Shown in pieces: positions 3,279 to 25,781 of a stretch of DNA of 25,781 nucleotides. Location: assembly GCA_001797815.1 (NCBI GenBank), contig MGQK01000111.1:5051-30831 (forward strand), in the 5' to 3' direction. The stretch's first letter is position 1. The number at the start of each line of letters is the position of its first letter. A program made the translations under genes and the position numbers. Below the pieces are notes generated by a model. That model did no database searches, was not told the DNA's origin, and worked only from the letters and a program-made list of their open reading frames with translations. Source of the DNA: Deltaproteobacteria bacterium RBG_13_61_14. GTDB lineage: Bacteria; RBG-13-61-14.

Positions 3279-4343
<1,065 letters not shown>

Positions 4344-4346
4344 GGC

Positions 4347-5441
4347 TTACCGTCCCGCCGCCGGCGCCTGTTTCTCCTTGACGCCGGCCCGGGCCTGCCG
4401 CTCAAACTCTTCCTTGTCCTCGGCATAGGCGAGGCCGGTCTGGAAGGAAATCTTTTTCGACCGGAAAAGCTGGAGCAGGCAATCATCCAACAGCATCGTG
4501 CCCTTGGAGCGGCCCATCTGCATCATCGAGCGGATCTGGAAGGTCTTGCCTTCCCGGATCAGGCTGGTAATCGGGACCGTGCCCACCAGGATCTCGTAGG
4601 CGGCCACCCGGCCCTTGCCGTCCAGGGTGGGGATCAGTTGCTGGGAAATAACTCCCACCAGCGATTCCGCCACCATCACCCGGATCTGCAGCCGCTGGTC
4701 GCCCGGGAACACGTCAATGATCCGGTCCACCGTATGTTGCGCGTTGATGGTGTGCAGGGTCCCGATCACCAGGTGGCCGGTCTCCGAAGCGGTGAGCGCC
4801 ATGGAGATGGTCTCCAGGTCCCGCATCTCTCCCACTAAAATGATGTCCGGGTCCTGGCGCAAGGCCGCCCGCAAGGCGATGGAGAAGGAGCGGGTGTTGT
4901 AGCCCACCTCCCGCTGGTTGACCAGGCAGGTTTTATCCTTGTGCTCAAACTCAATGGGATCTTCCACGGTGATGATGTGCTCGTGGCGCCGCTCGTTGAT
5001 CAGATCCAGCAGGGCCGCCTGGGTGGTGGTCTTGCCGCAGCCGGCCGGGCCCGTGACCAGGACCAGGCCGCGGCGAAAAGCGCCAAATTGCTCCACCACC
5101 ACCGGAAAGCCCAGCTCGGTCAGGCTGGGAATCCGGCTCGGGATATACCGGAACACCGCGTCCATGCCCCGGAAATGGACATAGGCATTCCCCCGAAACC
5201 GACCCACCTCGGGAATCTGGTAGGCGAAGTCCACGTCCCGCCGTTCTTTGAAAGTCTTGCGCTGGCGCTCGTCCAGGATCTCTCCCACCATCCGGTGCAG
5301 GTCTTTGGGCGGGAGCGGCGCGCCCTCGACGACTTTGAGCTCGCCGTTCACCCGCAAGAGAGGAGGTGAGCCTGAGGCCAGGTGGAGGTCCGAGGCGCCG
5401 GCCTCCACCATTTTTATCAGATATTGGTCAATGTCAGCCAT
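4347..5441 (-). CDS. PilT/PilU-like type IV pilus ATPase (first copy of tandem)
   Basis: This 364-aa paralogue of the following gene has the same order of motifs: GASDLHLASG (about 15-24), Walker A GPAGCGKTT (131-139), VEDPIEFEHK, the Walker B region DPDIILVGEM and the His-box region GTLHTINA. The Walker A loop has Ala-Gly-Cys where the second copy has Thr-Gly-Ser. The C-terminal motif reads ITSLIREG, a looser fit to AIRNLIRE. The ATG at 5441 is chosen so that the protein starts MADIDQYLIK, in register with the paralogue's MARIDSFLKH; an in-frame GTG at 5468 would add nine residues. It is probably an accessory or PilU-like retraction ATPase working with the other copy. The C-terminus ends in a Lys/Ala/Pro-rich tail. 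Confidence 0.9.
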   Translation of the reverse strand: MADIDQYLIKMVEAGASDLHLASGSPPLLRVNGELKVVEGAPLPPKDLHRMVGEILDERQRKTFKERRDVDFAYQIPEVGRFRGNAYVHFRGMDAVFRYIPSRIPSLTELGFPVVVEQFGAFRRGLVLVTGPAGCGKTTTQAALLDLINERRHEHIITVEDPIEFEHKDKTCLVNQREVGYNTRSFSIALRAALRQDPDIILVGEMRDLETISMALTASETGHLVIGTLHTINAQHTVDRIIDVFPGDQRLQIRVMVAESLVGVISQQLIPTLDGKGRVAAYEILVGTVPITSLIREGKTFQIRSMMQMGRSKGTMLLDDCLLQLFRSKKISFQTGLAYAEDKEEFERQARAGVKEKQAPAAGR

Positions 5442-5520
5442 TCGGGAAGATCGGAACCCATCTCTCACTGCCCATCATAGCCCTAAAGTTTTCCGCGCGC
5501 AAGCCCGCCGGATTGACCCA

Positions 5521-7917: not shown

Positions 7918-8033
7918 TTCACCACAAAGGCAGGAAGGCACAAGGAAACCTCAGGAAAAATCATCCACAGATTACACCGATTACGCAGATTAAGGAAATT
8001 TTTTTAACACAGAGACCACAGAGGGCACTGAGG
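7918..8033. repeat. Composite of interspersed repeat fragments (ACCACAAAGG / CACAGATTAC / AACACAGAG)
   Basis: Three AC/AG-rich repeat blocks follow each other after bioB: TTCACCACAAAGGCAGGAAG (from 7918), ATCCACAGATTACACCGATT (from 7963) and AACACAGAGACCACAGAGG (from 8006). Each consists of short internally repetitive words. The middle block recurs in inverted orientation at 9620-9648, on the other side of the AT-rich cassette. Such blocks are familiar as intergenic repeats in environmental bacterial genomes. No gene is seen between 7899 and 8113. Confidence 0.6.
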
Positions 8034-8113
8034 CTCTTAAAAAATGTATGGTGTTCCCCGAATTCCTAGTATTGACCTGGCCCCATTTCTTCAATTCTTC
8101 TTTATATATTACC

Positions 8114-8500
8114 TTATTTTGCTTTCGCATGTGCAAGCACTGAAGATAATACTTTTTTCACATTTTCAGACTGCAATATCACCTTTAAACCATGAAACAG
8201 TTCTTTCTCATCACCTACTCCATATTTCTTTTGATTCACCATATCATGTAATTCGAGAGGATATATAGTAATATCATAATCTATTTGTAGAATTCTTATT
8301 GAATATCCCGCAAGAGCAGATGAAAATATCTCTAAAGCATATGAAAATGCTCTTGATGGGACAATGCTTTTCGTAACTTTTGCCTCTATTAAATTCCCTG
8401 TCATTTTCCCAAGAAATGAAGCTTGTTGTTTCAAGATGTTTTGCGGCAAAACCAATGATTGTGCATCCGGTAATTCTCCCCACAGATTTTCTTGGCTCAT
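8114..8500 (-). CDS. Small protein of unknown function, coupled to EEP nuclease gene
   Basis: I do not recognise this 128-aa protein with confidence. It has no signal peptide or membrane segment and is predicted to be cytoplasmic. The N-terminal third (ILKQQASFLGKMTGNLIEAK, about 22-41) looks helical, the middle (YSIRILQIDYDITIYPLEL) looks like beta strands, and the C-terminus (KELFHGLKVILQSENVKKVL) is a predicted amphipathic helix. Its ATG overlaps the stop of the upstream EEP gene by one base (TAATG), and a strong ribosome binding site GGAGGAG precedes it inside that gene, so the two are translationally coupled. Codon use is AT-rich, like the nuclease gene and unlike the flanking genes, which indicates joint acquisition. 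A partner, inhibitor or immunity role is an inference from this arrangement only. Confidence 0.75.
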   Translation of the reverse strand: MSQENLWGELPDAQSLVLPQNILKQQASFLGKMTGNLIEAKVTKSIVPSRAFSYALEIFSSALAGYSIRILQIDYDITIYPLELHDMVNQKKYGVGDEKELFHGLKVILQSENVKKVLSSVLAHAKAK

Positions 8501-9324
8501 TATTCTCCTCCTGAAATAAGATTAAGGTTAAATATTATGGGTAAATGATCTGATGCATTTATCTTATCTGGCAATCCCGCAGGGCTTAAAAGTTTAATAT
8601 CACCTGCCTTTGTTAATATTTGAAGATCAGAATCAACAAAATATTTAATCAATTGTGGTCTTATTAAAACTTGATCAAAAATATTCCAATAATAATTAAC
8701 TGGATTAGAAGAATTATAATAATATGTTCCTTTAGCACCTTCCGGATAATCGCCAAAATGTCTCCACATAGGATTATAAAAAAAATAGTAATCTTTTCCT
8801 GAAACTTTTCTAGATTCCTTAAGAGCAATGGACCTATCCATGATTGCATGCAAACCATTTGATACAATAATACCTTGTTCAAATGGATTCATATTAAAAT
8901 CACCTACAACAACTGTCCTTTTATGGCCAATTTTAGTTTCATATTCTTCTATTATGCTAGCTAATTCTTGACAATAAAATGGTTGGTCTTCGGTTTTTAA
9001 ATATAGCTTGCTTTTTAAATGAACCACTACAATCAAAATATCAGGAACTATAATTGGATTCAATTGAAAAACTGATATGCCTGATGTATCAAAATGCATA
9101 GTAAAAAATTCATCACCAAGTCTAGATATAATGATTGGATCTTCAAATGGCCTTGAAATATATCTATAAATACCGGATTCACCAGGGTTCAAAGCTTGTA
9201 GTAGCTTCGGAAGATCAAAATCCATTTCTGAGAATAGCATTACATCGATATCATGTTGATTAGCAATTTGATAAATTAAATTATACAAGGATTTTTTATT
9301 GAGATTCCAGTATAAAAATTTCAT
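8500..9324 (-). CDS. Endonuclease/exonuclease/phosphatase (EEP) family protein
   Basis: The 274-aa protein shows the metal-dependent EEP (DNase I/ExoIII/IMPase-like) order of motifs. These are WNLN with Asn7, SEMD with the metal-ligand Glu33, VVHLKSK with His102, VVGDFNMNP with Asp142 and Asn144, NIFDQVLI with Asp217, and the terminal NASDHLPI with Asp259-His260. All expected catalytic positions are present, so phosphodiester or phosphomonoester hydrolysis is likely; the substrate (DNA, RNA, lipid or small molecule) cannot be told. The region from about 178 to 212 (DYYFFYNPMW, YYYNSSNPVN) is unusually Tyr/Asn-rich and may be a specificity insert. No signal peptide is seen. The gene is strongly AT-rich against its surroundings, has a near-consensus promoter at 9433-9461, and is coupled to the small downstream gene. 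Confidence 0.88.
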   Translation of the reverse strand: MKFLYWNLNKKSLYNLIYQIANQHDIDVMLFSEMDFDLPKLLQALNPGESGIYRYISRPFEDPIIISRLGDEFFTMHFDTSGISVFQLNPIIVPDILIVVVHLKSKLYLKTEDQPFYCQELASIIEEYETKIGHKRTVVVGDFNMNPFEQGIIVSNGLHAIMDRSIALKESRKVSGKDYYFFYNPMWRHFGDYPEGAKGTYYYNSSNPVNYYWNIFDQVLIRPQLIKYFVDSDLQILTKAGDIKLLSPAGLPDKINASDHLPIIFNLNLISGGE

Positions 9325-9432
9325 TGATAGCCTTTCAGTTCGAAGGACACCATAATTAATTCCCCTGATTATATTCTTGTATTGAGCCTTTTTTCAGATC
9401 CTCGGCTTTTTGAATATCCTAATCTTTAGCAA

Positions 9433-9461
9433 ATTCTACGACAAGAAATTTATTTTGTCAA
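9433..9461 (-). promoter_or_regulatory. Sigma70-type promoter of the EEP-nuclease operon
   Basis: On the minus strand TTGACA (9461-9456) and TAGAAT (9438-9433) are separated by exactly 17 bp. Transcription would start near 9426, leaving a leader of about 100 nt before the ATG at 9324. It is one of the best promoter matches in the window and lies within the AT-rich cassette. Confidence 0.75.
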
Positions 9462-9520
9462 GTGGTAATTTCAAAAGGCCCCTAAAATCAATGGGTTGGG
9501 AGGCATTGCGGGAGGGATAA

Positions 9521-9592
9521 AGTGCACGGTGGAAGGTGCACGGTGCAAAGTGATTCAAGTGGTTGACCGGCAGGAAGGCCTGTCCCCCGGCC
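9521..9592. repeat. GTGCACGGT repeat block and CAGGAAGGCCTG palindrome
   Basis: 9521-9552 holds repeated GTGCACGGT/GTGCAAAGT words, related in reverse complement to 5783-5815. At 9565-9592 GGCAGGAAGGCCTGTCCCCC forms an interspersed palindrome; a sister copy is at 10098-10121. Confidence 0.6.
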
Positions 9593-9619
9593 AGATGGAT
9601 AAGTTTGAGTTTTTCTGAA

Positions 9620-9648
9620 AATCTGCGTAATTGGCGAAATCTGCAGAT
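9620..9648. repeat. Inverted copy of the 7963-7991 repeat
   Basis: Read on the minus strand this begins ATCTGCAGATTTCGCC and ends ATTACGCAGATT. It matches 24 of 29 positions of the plus-strand block at 7963-7991. The two inverted copies bracket the AT-rich EEP cassette. Confidence 0.6.
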
Positions 9649-9713
9649 CATCTTCAATGTTAAGTTTTGGGGCCTGACCCCATGTTAAGTTAGGAGCGGA
9701 AAAGTTCATGCTC

Positions 9714-9818
9714 TGGTAAGTGCGAATGGTGTCGTGGTAAGGAAGAATCATGTCGTAGTAAGTGCGAAAGGCGTCTGGATAAGGAAGAATGGTGTCGTGG
9801 TAAGGACGATTCGGACAG
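9714..9818. repeat. 21-bp tandem repeat, about five units
   Basis: Five consecutive 21-bp units start TGGTAAGTGCGAA or TGGTAAGGAAGAAT, the two variants roughly alternating (units at 9714, 9735, 9756, 9777 and 9798). Because 21 is divisible by three, the minus strand reads as degenerate heptapeptides such as LPYHDTI, RTYYDMI and LPYPDAF. No credible gene around the array uses this reading, so it is given as a repeat. Just to its left lies GGGGCCTGACCCC (9670-9682), flanked on both sides by ATGTTAAGTT. Confidence 0.65.
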
Positions 9819-12337: not shown

Positions 12338-12616
12338 TTACCTTCTTTTGCTCAACTGCCTTAGCTTTTCAACGTTACCTGCTATAAGGGCTTCCTTCTT
12401 CGCTCGAGTCCACTTCTTTATCTGGCGCTCCCTGTTGACTGCAGCAGTTTTACTTTCACATTCCTCTGAATACACCTGGAGGACGGGCCGCCGGTTCCTG
12501 GTATAATCTGGACCAACACCCTTGTTATGTGCCTTTACCCTCTCGTCAACGTCTTTCGATGAGCCGACGTAAAAGCTGTTGTCCGAACAGCGCAGGATGT
12601 AAACATAATACGACAT
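12338..12616 (-). CDS. GIY-YIG domain protein (UPF0213/YhbQ-like)
   Basis: The 92-aa protein is a minimal GIY-YIG nuclease domain. The first strands read YYVYILRC and FYVGSS (the GIY and YIG positions), then VDERVKAHN with the conserved Arg. Later come YSEECESKTAAVNRERQIK with a conserved Glu, and a basic C-terminus. Such stand-alone domains are small, often mobile, and of unclear cellular role; some act on nucleic acids. The gene is more AT-rich than its neighbours. Its upstream region carries a repeat (12626-12654) and it lies next to a tRNA gene, which fits acquisition as a small cassette. The ATG at 12616 has AAGGG upstream. Confidence 0.88.
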   Translation of the reverse strand: MSYYVYILRCSDNSFYVGSSKDVDERVKAHNKGVGPDYTRNRRPVLQVYSEECESKTAAVNRERQIKKWTRAKKEALIAGNVEKLRQLSKRR

Positions 12617-17198: not shown

Positions 17199-17274
17199 GG
17201 GCGATTAGCTCAGTGGATAGAGCACCGGCCTCCGGAGCCGGGTGTCGCTGGTTCGAATCCAGTATCGCCCTCCA
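17199..17274 (+). tRNA. tRNA-Arg (anticodon CCG)
   Basis: The gene starts GGGCGATTAGCTCAGTGG and its acceptor stem closes with ATCGCCC, followed by T and an encoded CCA. The anticodon stem CCGGC/GCCGG encloses CTCCGGA, giving anticodon CCG. The T arm is CTGGTTCGAATCCAG. Its 3' part is used as integration site by the element to the right and is also read, on the minus strand, as the end of the integrase gene. Confidence 0.96.
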
Positions 17275-18445
17275 AAATTCCCCTTACGGGATAGCCGCTT
17301 ACAGCAAACGCCGTTTTCGGTAGCACGCTGGTAGCACAAAATTCCCCTGATTCAACCGCCTCGCGGGCGATTTCTCCCACCTTCGCCGCCGCGTCAACCA
17401 GCCGCTCCCGCCGCGCTTTAACATAGCGATTCAGGGTAAGGGTCGGGGTTGAATGGCGCATGAGGGTTTGAGCCGTCTTTATGTCCGCCCCTTCCTCGAT
17501 CAAGAGCGTGGCAAACGTGGAGCGAAGCGAGTGAAGCGTAGCCGATCCTTCCCCCACTACGAAACGGGGAATGCCGGCCGCCTTTAAGTCCTTGTAAAAT
17601 GTCTCGGTCGGATTGCCGGGGAATCCGGCCAGCAGGGGCGCATCCGGGTCGCTCCCCTGAGTTGCGGCCAGAAGCCAATCCAGGAGCCAGGGCGAAAGCG
17701 GTTGCAAGCCGGATTTCTTGTTTTTCGTGATCTCCGCCCGAAGGTTCAAGGCTTGCATGTCCAGGTTCAAGTCGGAAACCTTCAGGGTCTTCAACTCCGA
17801 GCGGCGAAGGCCCGTGGCAACGGCCAGGGTGTAGATCAATTGCCGTTCCTCTGGCACGGCGGCCAGGAGCTTTGCCAACTCCTCGCGGGTCAAGGCCCGA
17901 TAAATCCGGGTAGGCGTGGTATCAAACCGGGTCAATCCCTTGGTTGGGTCGTGATCCAGGAAACCCCGCCGCTCCGCCCATCGGCAAAAGCTCTTAATGC
18001 TCTCCACCCTGTCCATGATGCTCTTGCCGGATAAACCCCGCCCCTGTAACTCGCGGAGAGCCGCTTCCGCCCTCGGAAGGATACCGGGCAGGTCGCCCAA
18101 GCTTGCGAGGCCCAGGTGTTCCGCCCACCATTCAAGGTTTTTCTGCTTTTGCCGGGCGTGCATCTTGGCCCATCCCCGACCCCCGCGCCCGCCGCAACTC
18201 AAACCCCAAGAGACGTATTCCCCCACCGCTTCGGAGTAGAGCCGGGCCGCGTGCTTGCTCGCGCTCTTGGGCGGCTCGCGGTATCCGAGCCGGACCTGCT
18301 TGTGTTCATCTTCCAGCTTGCGCGCCATTGCCAGGGTTTCGCGCCGGTCATGGGTTCCGGTGAAAAACTGCCGCTTGCCCGCCGCGTCCACAAACCAGGC
18401 TTGAAACTTGCCGCCAGGGTTCGGCCTTTTCCTCGCTCCGGCCAT
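17210..18445 (-). CDS. int: Tyrosine recombinase / integrase of tRNA-Arg element
   Basis: The 411-aa protein has an N-terminal arm and SAM-like DNA-binding part (about 1-175) and a C-terminal tyrosine recombinase domain. The catalytic residues are visible: Arg214 (ATGLRRSEL), a Lys candidate at KNKKSG, His305 and Arg308 (LHSLRSTFA), His331 (MRHSTPTL) and the nucleophile Tyr341 (LNRYVKA). The last roughly 20 residues (about 391-411: LEGDTGFEPATPGSGG and onward) are encoded by the antisense strand of the tRNA-Arg gene, with the stop inside it. The true conserved domain ends well before that. The start ATG at 18445 lies 2 bp after the stop of a small ribbon-helix-helix gene, forming an operon that can control integrase level. 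Confidence 0.93.
   Translation of the reverse strand: MAGARKRPNPGGKFQAWFVDAAGKRQFFTGTHDRRETLAMARKLEDEHKQVRLGYREPPKSASKHAARLYSEAVGEYVSWGLSCGGRGGRGWAKMHARQKQKNLEWWAEHLGLASLGDLPGILPRAEAALRELQGRGLSGKSIMDRVESIKSFCRWAERRGFLDHDPTKGLTRFDTTPTRIYRALTREELAKLLAAVPEERQLIYTLAVATGLRRSELKTLKVSDLNLDMQALNLRAEITKNKKSGLQPLSPWLLDWLLAATQGSDPDAPLLAGFPGNPTETFYKDLKAAGIPRFVVGEGSATLHSLRSTFATLLIEEGADIKTAQTLMRHSTPTLTLNRYVKARRERLVDAAAKVGEIAREAVESGEFCATSVLPKTAFAVSGYPVRGILEGDTGFEPATPGSGGRCSIH
17245..17274. other. Left attachment site (attL) within the tRNA-Arg 3' end
   Basis: The integrase gene directly abuts and overlaps the 3' half of an intact tRNA, the usual arrangement when the element carries a copy of the tRNA 3' end. 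The crossover is expected in the T arm/acceptor part. No second copy of TTCGAATCCAG or TATCGCCCTCCA was found to the right, so attR is either outside the window or lost; the exact core is not defined. Confidence 0.45.
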
Positions 18446-22469: not shown

Positions 22470-23267
22470 CTAAACTTTATACGCACCATACCCAATCACT
22501 GCCAGCGTCAGCACCACCATGGCCAGTGCCAGGTCCGAGGTCCCATAAGAGTTGCTCTCTAGGGCAATTTCTAAGCGCTGCAACTCCTCACCGTTGTCGT
22601 CAACAATCGAAATACTCCCCTGCCCCACGCAATATTGCGGCAGCGGCTCTCGGATCGGCAAATACCAGCTCCGCGCGCTCCGCTCGCTCGCTCCCCACAC
22701 CTCCTTGATCCCAACTACCCACAGCTCCTGGGTGTCTCCGCTCAAACATCCTAGCCGCCACCAGGCCTCGCTCCGGCCATCGGCTTCATTGGCGATCCAG
22801 ACGTCAAGGGTGGCTCCGTCCTGGGGGGATTGCCAGGGATAACCCGCCACGGTCCCTTCCCCCCGATAGACAGCATAGCGCACCGCGAAGTTCGCCGCAA
22901 TCGTGGAGCCGCCTTGCGGGTTGACCCGCTCCAGGGGCAGGAGTTCGCCGGGAATAATCTCGTCCTGATTATGGCGGTAGTAGAGGTAGGCCACAAAGGG
23001 ATCGGAAATCACTTGGCCGGCATCCGCGCCCCAGCTCGGATAGTAGCTCAAGAGTTGGGGTCGAATATCGAATTGGGCGGGCGCAATATCCATCACTTCA
23101 TCCGAGATCGAGGTGGAGACGGTTTCGCTCTCTCCGAGAGCGCTGATGGTCAGTGACTGGGAGAAGGGGCCGAGGTCATCCGAACCGGCCCCATCCGGCC
23201 TGGTTCCATAAAACCATTCGGCCTTGGCCAAGCCCAGGCTCTCCAAGCGAACCGCAACTATGGATGA
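22470..23267 (-). pseudogene. 5'-truncated 3' fragment of an envelope protein with C-terminal membrane segment
   Basis: The frame opens directly after the TAG of the upstream lipoprotein gene, with no ATG or ribosome binding site. The first in-frame start, a TTG at 23246, has none either, so the 5' part seems lost. The fragment (about 265 codons) contains NEADGRSEAWWRLGC, QELWVVGIKEVWGASERS and GSISIVDDNGEEL, clearly related to the same modules of the large protein at 23968-25781. It ends in a single membrane segment DLALAMVVLTLAVIGYGAYK, an anchor. Composition is much more GC-rich than the lipoprotein gene that abuts it, so a recombination junction lies near 23262. It may be expressed only by readthrough, or not at all. 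Confidence 0.65.
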
Positions 23268-23942
23268 CTATTGACAATCTTGGATAAGTTTTATAATTGG
23301 TCCACAGACTTCTTCTTTGCGCTTCGAAGCATCTACTGGGAACTTAAAATCCTTAGAAGGGGTTTCGGCCCACTCGCTATAACTAATATGAATATCAAGA
23401 TTGGCAAATAGTATTTTAGAATCAAAGGAAGGACTATTCTCGCGTTTTTCAGTGCTCCAGCTATAATCTCCCAACTTATTCTCCTTATCTGGCTTATATA
23501 ACGAAGGTTGAGGAATATGTGTAAAAGCATAAAAAGAAAATCTTCTGGCTTGTTCATAATTTTGATAAATAGTAATATCGATTTGAGTGCCAGAATCTAT
23601 GTGATCGCTGATTTTTGTTCTATAGCCAGCATAGAATGAATGCGCGCCTGTATCAAAATAGCGACGAGTCAAAGTTCCGGAGATTCCAGGAAGATCCGGC
23701 ATATTAATTTCGAGGCATTTTATTAACTTCTGTGGCGTATTTATTGGATGCTTTGTTTCTTTTGGAATATCATCTGGGGCATATTTGAAAGGATCCCCAA
23801 ATCTATTTTTGAAATCAGCATATTCCTTTTCTTTTATTTGATAATACTCATCAGTTGGAAGAGTTTGAATTTGCGAAACCTTTTCATCGCATGAATAGCT
23901 TGAAGCTATCAGAATTAAAAGAATAACTTTCAATGTGTTCAT
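23268..23942 (-). CDS. Small lipoprotein of unknown function, candidate immunity protein
   Basis: The 224-aa product starts MNTLKVILLILIASSYSC, a lipoprotein signal with Cys18 as likely acylated residue, so it should be attached to a membrane in the envelope. The mature part is hydrophilic and beta-rich (DIHISYSEWAETP, SGTQIDITIYQNYEQARRF) with only a few cysteines; I recognise no family. It starts 25 bp after the large envelope-protein gene, with a strong AAAGGAG site, so the two are co-transcribed. It is as AT-rich as the 3' end of that gene and ends exactly against a GC-rich gene fragment. Position, size and envelope location fit an immunity protein for the upstream C-terminal domain; this is an inference, since no homology is visible. 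Confidence 0.8.
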   Translation of the reverse strand: MNTLKVILLILIASSYSCDEKVSQIQTLPTDEYYQIKEKEYADFKNRFGDPFKYAPDDIPKETKHPINTPQKLIKCLEINMPDLPGISGTLTRRYFDTGAHSFYAGYRTKISDHIDSGTQIDITIYQNYEQARRFSFYAFTHIPQPSLYKPDKENKLGDYSWSTEKRENSPSFDSKILFANLDIHISYSEWAETPSKDFKFPVDASKRKEEVCGPIIKLIQDCQ

Positions 23943-23967: not shown

Positions 23968-25781
23968 TTATGGAGCATTGCTGTTGGTGATCGTCAGCAC
24001 GGTATTACCAGCCAAGGTTGAGGTCTCGAAAGTATCGGATTTATATGATGAATGCCATAAACCCCGTGGGCAAAAATAGTCATCACCACTTCCTCTCACC
24101 TGAATGCTGGCCGAGTCATAGACCGGGTTCATCGGCAAATCAAGTAAGGGATACATATGAAACTGCCATGAAGCCGCATCGTATAGATTTGGGAAAGATG
24201 GATAATCTGCTTCATATCCAGAATCACAATAAATCAAATCCCAGGGATTAATATAATGTTCCCAAAACGATTTAGTCGCGGCAAGCAAAGGATAAGTTTG
24301 GATAAGGGGACCGAGATTAGGTACCCAATTTGGATGATACAAGGCATATGAGTTCATAGGAATCCCGAGAGAAGTAATAAGATTGACATTAAGGTTTGAA
24401 AAAGCCTGACAATCCAATCGCGATGTTTTTTGGGCCGGATCTGAAAGTTCTTTTAATAGCCTAGTCAAATAAAAAGTAAGATTATCAGCTCTCGGTGACC
24501 AGGATGTATAGGGAACTTGACCTCCATAATATTCCAAATTCGCTTTCCACGGAAACGACCGATAGGCCATTGCAAATTGCGAATTATTCCAACATGATCT
24601 GGCAACACAGGCAGAAACAAAATTAGCAATATAGGCTGGATCTCCTAGCATTGGCATATCCCAATATCTAGTCTGCCACCAGACCGCCATTTTCGCTCCG
24701 GCCTCCACTACCTCGGCAACGGGGCCGGCATCATTGGGCGGCTGAGGAACATCGTAAATAACAGAAATACTATGCGGGCCGGTAAACTTCGGGAATAAGG
24801 CGGCCATAGCATACGGACCTAAACCCTCCGGGTTAATCCGGAAACCGAGGCCATCCTCAAACGCCAGTATCTTGTCCGCAGGGAACGTCGCCGTCGTCGA
24901 AAAATAGGCTTCTGCCTCTCCCCCGGAAAAACTGACCGGGATTTCCTCGAAGTAAGGGAAACAGCTTTCCCGGCTATAGACATTGCATTTTTGCGATTGC
25001 ACCCACATCGGGATAGTTCCAGAAAAATCATTCGGATTTGCAAAAAGGTGAGCCTTGATGACCGGACTCACTCCCCGAAGATAGGCCACCGGATAATTAA
25101 CGCCCGCGCCCGGCGACCATTCCGGCGCTTGAATCACCGCTAAATTGCGATCCTTGACCGTGATCGCGTCATCTGAATCGTCCGAGTCATTCCAGTTAAA
25201 ACTGACCGCTCCCACCGTAATTCCTAAGCCAATGGCCAGTCCAAAACTTCCTCCACCCTTTGCCGTGGCCACCACTATTCCACCTTGCTGACCATCAATC
25301 GTCAAGGCATCCAAAACCCAAGGACTGTCGCTGAGACCATAGATCACCTCAATTTTTCCAGAACGATGGTAGGACGAACTATAATTGCCATAGACCAGAT
25401 TCACGGTCAGCGAGTCCAATACATTCCCCTCCGCGTCATAGCTCAAAAGCTGGCCTTCGATGTTTGAGGTCACCGGCCTCGGCGGAATCTGCAACCGATT
25501 AATCGGGGTCTCCATCTTCACGTAAAAGTAATGCTGCTCCGCCTCCGTGCTCTCCGGCAAATATTCCAACTCCTGGCCGTTCTCGTCAATCAAAGTGATA
25601 CTTCCTTTGCTCACGCAATACGGGATCAGCGCGTCCAACCCGGTCTGAATCTCCCAGTACCATGCCCGGTAGCTTGGCTGGCTCGCGCCCCAGACCTCTT
25701 TCATCCCCACCACCCACAACTCCTGGCTCCCAACATTGCACCCCAACCGCCACCACGCCTCGGTCCTCGCATCCGTCTCGT
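23968..25781 (-). CDS. Large envelope protein with transglutaminase-like C-terminal domain, 5' end outside window
   Basis: The frame is open to the window edge (ETDARTEAWWRLGCNVG continues upstream of any start), so the N-terminus is missing; about 604 codons are visible. Numbering from the TTG at 25746: a module QELWVVGMKEVWGASQ...GSITLIDENGQEL (8-60) is shared with the fragment at 22470. A Gly-rich hydrophobic stretch (about 163-183) is followed by an Asp-rich NDSDDSDD. A beta-rich region runs to about 350. The last 230 residues suggest a transglutaminase/papain-like fold: SRLDCQAFSNL with Cys446 before a helix and LGIP, SWQFHMYPL with His530, and NPVYDSASI with Asp544, a Cys-His-Asp triad in the right order. 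This end is AT-rich against the rest. Cell-surface processing, crosslinking or toxin activity are possible. Confidence 0.75.
   Translation of the reverse strand, partial: ETDARTEAWWRLGCNVGSQELWVVGMKEVWGASQPSYRAWYWEIQTGLDALIPYCVSKGSITLIDENGQELEYLPESTEAEQHYFYVKMETPINRLQIPPRPVTSNIEGQLLSYDAEGNVLDSLTVNLVYGNYSSSYHRSGKIEVIYGLSDSPWVLDALTIDGQQGGIVVATAKGGGSFGLAIGLGITVGAVSFNWNDSDDSDDAITVKDRNLAVIQAPEWSPGAGVNYPVAYLRGVSPVIKAHLFANPNDFSGTIPMWVQSQKCNVYSRESCFPYFEEIPVSFSGGEAEAYFSTTATFPADKILAFEDGLGFRINPEGLGPYAMAALFPKFTGPHSISVIYDVPQPPNDAGPVAEVVEAGAKMAVWWQTRYWDMPMLGDPAYIANFVSACVARSCWNNSQFAMAYRSFPWKANLEYYGGQVPYTSWSPRADNLTFYLTRLLKELSDPAQKTSRLDCQAFSNLNVNLITSLGIPMNSYALYHPNWVPNLGPLIQTYPLLAATKSFWEHYINPWDLIYCDSGYEADYPSFPNLYDAASWQFHMYPLLDLPMNPVYDSASIQVRGSGDDYFCPRGLWHSSYKSDTFETSTLAGNTVLTITNSNAP

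Follow-up and report, generated by a model that had tools for sequence, protein, structure and literature searches.

What is the pair of AT-rich genes that lies within a GC-rich stretch of the genome of Deltaproteobacteria bacterium RBG_13_61_14, and what might it do? The window that we analysed, the whole stretch of 25,781 nucleotides from contig MGQK01000111.1, has a GC content of 30-36% over about 8.0-9.5 kb compared with 58-69% in the surroundings. A first-pass annotation, made from the letters alone, had described the sequence here as far more AT-rich than everything around it, with two genes overlapping in TAATG, and both observations hold: the stop codon of the EEP gene and the start codon of the partner gene overlap by one base in this motif, and the two open reading frames lie where they had been placed (Table 1). 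The same annotation had assigned a near-consensus promoter to the pair. A site matching the consensus at 11 of 12 positions is indeed present upstream; however, the region as a whole carries nine promoter-like sites compared with 6.8 +/- 2.7 in shuffled sequence, which is no excess. A search for a leader RNA 5' of the pair found structure no better than chance (z -0.06).

Table 1. Features of the two-gene locus and its margins, in window positions.
Feature	Position	Strand	Basis or remark
EEP-superfamily enzyme, 274 amino acids, gene 1 of the pair, putative effector	8500-9324	minus	PF03372 and AF2 model
Partner, 128 amino acids, gene 2 of the pair	8114-8500	minus	Kept in 78 relatives; without known family
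Promoter-like TTGACA-17-TAGAAT, 5' of the pair	9461-9433	minus	Consensus match alone, 11/12
Dispersed-repeat copy, left	7963-7991	plus	Not a cassette boundary
Dispersed-repeat copy, right, diverged, opposite orientation	9620-9648	minus	Incidental

Two copies of a 29-bp repeat had been taken to bracket the cassette, and inverted copies on both sides of the pair could mark a small mobile element delimited by them. The inverted pair is real, spanning 7957-7991 and 9620-9654 with 80% complementarity. Yet the left copy (CACAGATTACACNGATTNCNCAGATTA family) has 24 matches with at most three mismatches, on many contigs of the 4.7 Mb source genome, whereas the reversed control has none and the genome holds a single EEP gene of this family. 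Since the repeat is spread genome-wide and the gene is single, the two copies around the pair mark no element; this dispersal rules out the inverted repeats as cassette termini and makes the bracketing incidental. A transposase is also absent and the repeat copies have diverged, and we regard a repeat-bounded element as extremely improbable. Beside the cassette, at 9706-9810, diverged tandem repeats of 21 nt resembling GGTGTCGTGGTAAGGAAGAAT form a short array.

The product of the first gene is a member of the EEP superfamily by profile, fold and catalytic residues. It scores 25.6 bits against Pfam PF03372, just over the gathering cut-off of 24.5, and matches an ExoIII profile. The AF2 model (pLDDT 94.8) comprises a full EEP domain, and comparison with VIA aligns it at Z 19-20 with DNase I, neutral sphingomyelinase, the TRAS1 endonuclease, TDP2, APE1 and Mth0212. 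That all of the catalytic residues are in place had been noted at the outset. The active site is complete, with Asn7, Glu33, His102, Asp142, Asn144, Asp217, Asp259 and His260 invariant in 74 relatives, as are Trp6, Gly141, Pro147, Asn184, Pro185, Trp187, Trp213, Gln218, Ser258 and Pro262. Fold and the invariant WN, E, H, GDxN, D and SDH motifs are thus shared with the superfamily, which also takes in CCR4-type enzymes. The family differs from it in forming a distinct subfamily, with the signatures FYNPMW and W-N-x-F-D-Q-V, that always occurs with a small partner; the best identity of its closest relative to the window protein is 46%. We infer that the protein is a phosphodiesterase dependent on metal, and most likely a nuclease. 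Because sphingomyelinases, sugar-phosphate phosphatases and TDP2 are EEP enzymes as well as nucleases, the substrate is not readable from the fold.

The partner displays a conserved pattern across 78 relatives, W7...P19..L23..Q26...L30...T34...Y66...Y80-P81. Its AF2 model (pLDDT 94.2) consists of an N-terminal coil carrying Trp7, a helix at residues 19-33, five strands and two C-terminal helices, and presents a well-folded conserved core with loops of variable length. The residues kept most are Trp, Pro, Leu, Gln, Thr and Tyr; the charged or histidine positions common to half or more of the sequences are Glu25, His75, Glu98 and Glu100, at 54-81%. Since the most conserved residues are of non-catalytic types, the partner is probably a binding protein rather than an enzyme. 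The first-pass annotation would have given up its reading had this protein belonged to a family with an unrelated known role. No Pfam, PADLOC or PHROGs family was found for it; Pfam searches of the 78 members gave single chance matches and NCBIfam one chance-level match. The sequence has no match in the PDB. The fold, compared with the PDB by Foldseek and VIA, finds nothing above background (the best is CapZ at Z 7.6), and neither does Foldseek against BFVD (weak phage G proteins, E 0.002). Neither a DNA-binding domain nor a known antitoxin domain is present. In XisH/XisI a small helix-plus-sheet partner is likewise encoded beside a nuclease gene, and XisI structures are among the fold matches, with a Z of 4.5 that is at background level; the XisH/XisI nuclease fold differs from EEP, and we treat the likeness as a lead only.

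The strictness with which the two genes go together is apparent from 107 non-redundant loci, 87 of which have both genes intact. An intact EEP gene is always followed directly by the partner gene, contig ends excepted: the three intact EEP genes that lack a full partner (L027, L039 and L050) stand at contig ends, and the sole EEP gene with room downstream and no partner (L025) contains a premature stop. Spacing between the genes has a median of +5 nt, with 60 of 65 pairs falling between -25 and +30, and even very divergent pairs (L119, L120 and L112) keep both genes. Four IMG/VR contigs were found by the EEP gene alone and all four have the partner directly downstream. In one locus (L014, 2771-4175) a single EEP gene is followed by three paralogous partner genes in tandem. 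Of 352 Planctomycetota genomes drawn without bias, nine hold the EEP gene (threshold E < 1e-50), ten the partner and nine both (hypergeometric P ~5e-17); for 396 Acidobacteriota genomes the counts are three, four and three (P 4e-7). The pair is therefore conserved and its genes co-occur far above chance, which bears out the proposal of a self-contained unit and answers the concern, raised with it, that the genes might not be found together elsewhere. On the evidence of these sequences the small partner is obligate for, and co-encoded with, an EEP protein with a complete active site.

A scan of GTDB returned 185 EEP relatives; the best 80 of the 185 represent 14 named phyla, and one of these relatives comes from a methanogen MAG. 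Some MAG labels, Klebsiella and Akkermansia for example, may reflect binning errors. Carriers of the pair include the cultured environmental bacteria Spirosoma panaciterrae (L066) and Rugamonas rubra (L062). The pair occurs rarely and patchily, as the Acidobacteriota and Planctomycetota counts illustrate (EEP in 3/396 and 9/352 genomes), and one Planctomycetota genome (G1010) carries three pairs. In 75 of 79 loci the pair is lower in GC content than its flanks (median difference -7.5 points; Wilcoxon P 3e-14), the window locus being the extreme of this gap. Several phage or prophage contigs carry the pair, which adjoins a phage terminase gene at L003, an integrase at L110 and a LexA/CI-like repressor at L001. 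Among PLSDB plasmids closer pairs are absent, and among INPHARED phages close relatives are absent; each collection contains distant EEP relatives alone. No empty site was demonstrable, since the mazG loci of two same-order relatives lack bioB within 1.5 kb. The locus is one instance of a two-gene module that is widespread, unnamed and moves horizontally.

Defence islands had been envisaged as a home for the module, and the neighbourhoods do not bear this out. The 179 immediate neighbours, scanned with PADLOC and Pfam, are mostly housekeeping genes, no neighbour is common to the loci, and a minority have PADLOC matches (among them type II methyltransferases, AbiLi, AriA and DruM), a figure that has no control set. 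By its surroundings the pair looks more like a solitary moron-like cassette than a member of a defence island.

The window has other features of interest at a distance from the pair. An integrase-like ORF (17210-18445, minus strand) ends in a tRNA-Arg gene (17199-17274), and beyond it genes of lower GC content extend from 19 kb to about 25.7 kb; the stretch from 17199 to about 25.7 kb resembles an element that has integrated at a tRNA gene and is distinct from the EEP pair. The ORFs at 22470-23246 and 23968-25746 have the sequence QELWVVG(I/M)KEVWGAS in common, which suggests a duplicated or split protein, and are separated by a low-GC lipoprotein-like ORF (23268-23942). Two tandem PilT/PilU-like ATPase genes occupy 3279-5468, and a small GIY-YIG-like ORF (12338-12616) lies close to a tRNA-Ala gene in a local dip in GC content.

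The pair decays in a one-sided way. About ten loci have a broken (frameshifted or interrupted) EEP gene beside an intact partner, and the reverse is found in none. Two orphan partners (L104 and L129) are known and no orphan intact EEP was seen; away from contig ends, none of the 107 loci keeps the EEP gene intact without the small gene. If damage were proportional to gene length, the 9 to 12 one-sided events would have P 0.03-0.008, the events being few, MAG frameshifts possibly sequencing errors and some of the loci derived from the partner search. The asymmetry points to a toxic enzyme and its keeper, and because MAG errors and mixed ascertainment remain we grade it as suggestive only.

Type II toxin-antitoxin systems offer the nearest comparison. 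The pair shares with them small, overlapping, co-directional genes that are adjacent and co-occur, obligate pairing, patchy transfer, and an enzyme that decays while its partner survives. It differs in that the toxin-like gene comes first and the partner is without a known antitoxin domain, with no known antitoxin family recognized by Pfam among its 78 members; to our knowledge, the EEP fold is not among the usual folds of type II toxins. Prophage-borne abortive-infection and defence pairs resemble it in their sites beside prophages or integrases (L110 and L149), in the absence of a common neighbour and in low GC content; they differ in that our pair matches no PADLOC 2.0 model and has no consistent defence-island setting. 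PADLOC-DB 2.0 gave no match for the window pair and two weak single matches among the 74 EEP relatives. The first-pass annotation knew of no named system of this composition, and we likewise found none in PADLOC 2023, Pfam, NCBIfam or PHROGs, nor an EEP toxin-antitoxin or defence pair in a literature search whose coverage mostly excluded subscription papers and preprints.

Two Acinetobacter loci deserve mention in this context. Acinetobacter phage vB_AbaSI_1 (L149, 1341-4931) and an A. baumannii plasmid (L150, 2629-5066) carry genes for an EEP protein, a 151-residue protein and an FRG-domain protein. The EEP protein is an EEP profile match (E 3e-27 in a six-sequence search) and shares the FYNPxW, W..YDQ and SDHLP motifs with our family, and the 151-residue gene overlaps the end of the EEP gene. 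In the phage the EEP gene lies downstream of the integrase and is annotated as a fragment, with the small gene whole. Against these likenesses, the 151-residue protein resembles the partner only marginally (E 2e-4 when six sequences were searched; hhalign gives a probability of 22%) and the FRG-domain gene is additional. The set may be a distant cousin of the pair, at most.

The reading that we place first is that the pair is a toxin-antitoxin-like or abortive-infection module with an EEP effector restrained by the partner. The one-sided decay and the triple partners of L014 fit a toxin and its keeper, and for this reason the EEP protein is cast as the toxin; a system of toxin-antitoxin or defence type is also a plausible fit to prophage carriage and low GC content. 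The linkage is observed directly, and the function is put forward tentatively, somewhat short of probable. In such a module the free enzyme would harm its own cell, and the partner would bind it and keep it inactive, perhaps by way of the N-terminal segment W7...P19, modelled as a coil before the first helix. The complex would be disturbed by an intruder, a phage most probably, or when the operon is lost; the enzyme, released or activated, would then degrade nucleic acid and halt infection or growth. The module would act as a type II toxin-antitoxin or abortive-infection pair in which the toxin gene leads, present in prophages and as a lone island amid housekeeping genes, and its role would probably be phage defence.

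Much of the evidence would suit a defence pair of another design, in which the partner is a sensor or activator that recognizes a phage component and switches on or directs an EEP protein that is inactive or unspecific alone. Linkage, mobility and low GC content fit this equally, several carriers are phages or prophages, and a conserved folded core with loops of variable length is sensor-like. Such a pair, which would not be a toxin-antitoxin system, predicts neither the loci with a broken EEP gene and an intact partner, set against none of the reverse, nor the orphan partners, and we rank it second and consider it rather unlikely. A toxin-antitoxin module that serves only its own stabilization, with no function in defence, would account for the gene arrangement, the pattern of decay and carriage by prophages. 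Plasmids are the usual place of addiction modules, and the absence of closer pairs from PLSDB, where only distant EEP relatives occur, makes this quite improbable.

The remaining explanation leaves conflict aside altogether: an enzyme processing nucleic acids or nucleotides (in repair or recombination, or as a phosphatase) together with a cofactor protein, domestic or parasite-borne, and transferred between lineages. EEP enzymes are often repair enzymes, the ExoIII profile match is in keeping with this, and many loci stand solitary amid housekeeping genes. A housekeeping function is nevertheless hard to reconcile with the very patchy presence, the systematic GC mismatch with the flanks, carriage by phages, several pairs in one genome (G1010) and frequent decay, and we judge such an enzyme unlikely.

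Compact two-gene conflict modules are a known kind of system; what is new is an EEP protein and this partner in such a role. With more than 80 intact natural pairs, and their families and alignments, toxicity, inhibition and phage resistance can be tested directly. Extended to the family, the toxin-and-keeper reading would describe an unnamed toxin-antitoxin or abortive phage-defence class in at least 14 phyla, with an EEP effector and a new family of small alpha+beta partners that inhibit it through their conserved N-terminal segment, a proposal that we advance with similar reserve, as possible and short of an even chance. If it is true, the partners would constitute a family described by none of the libraries used, and the EEP (DNase I) fold would be added to the effector repertoire of compact bacterial conflict systems with two genes.
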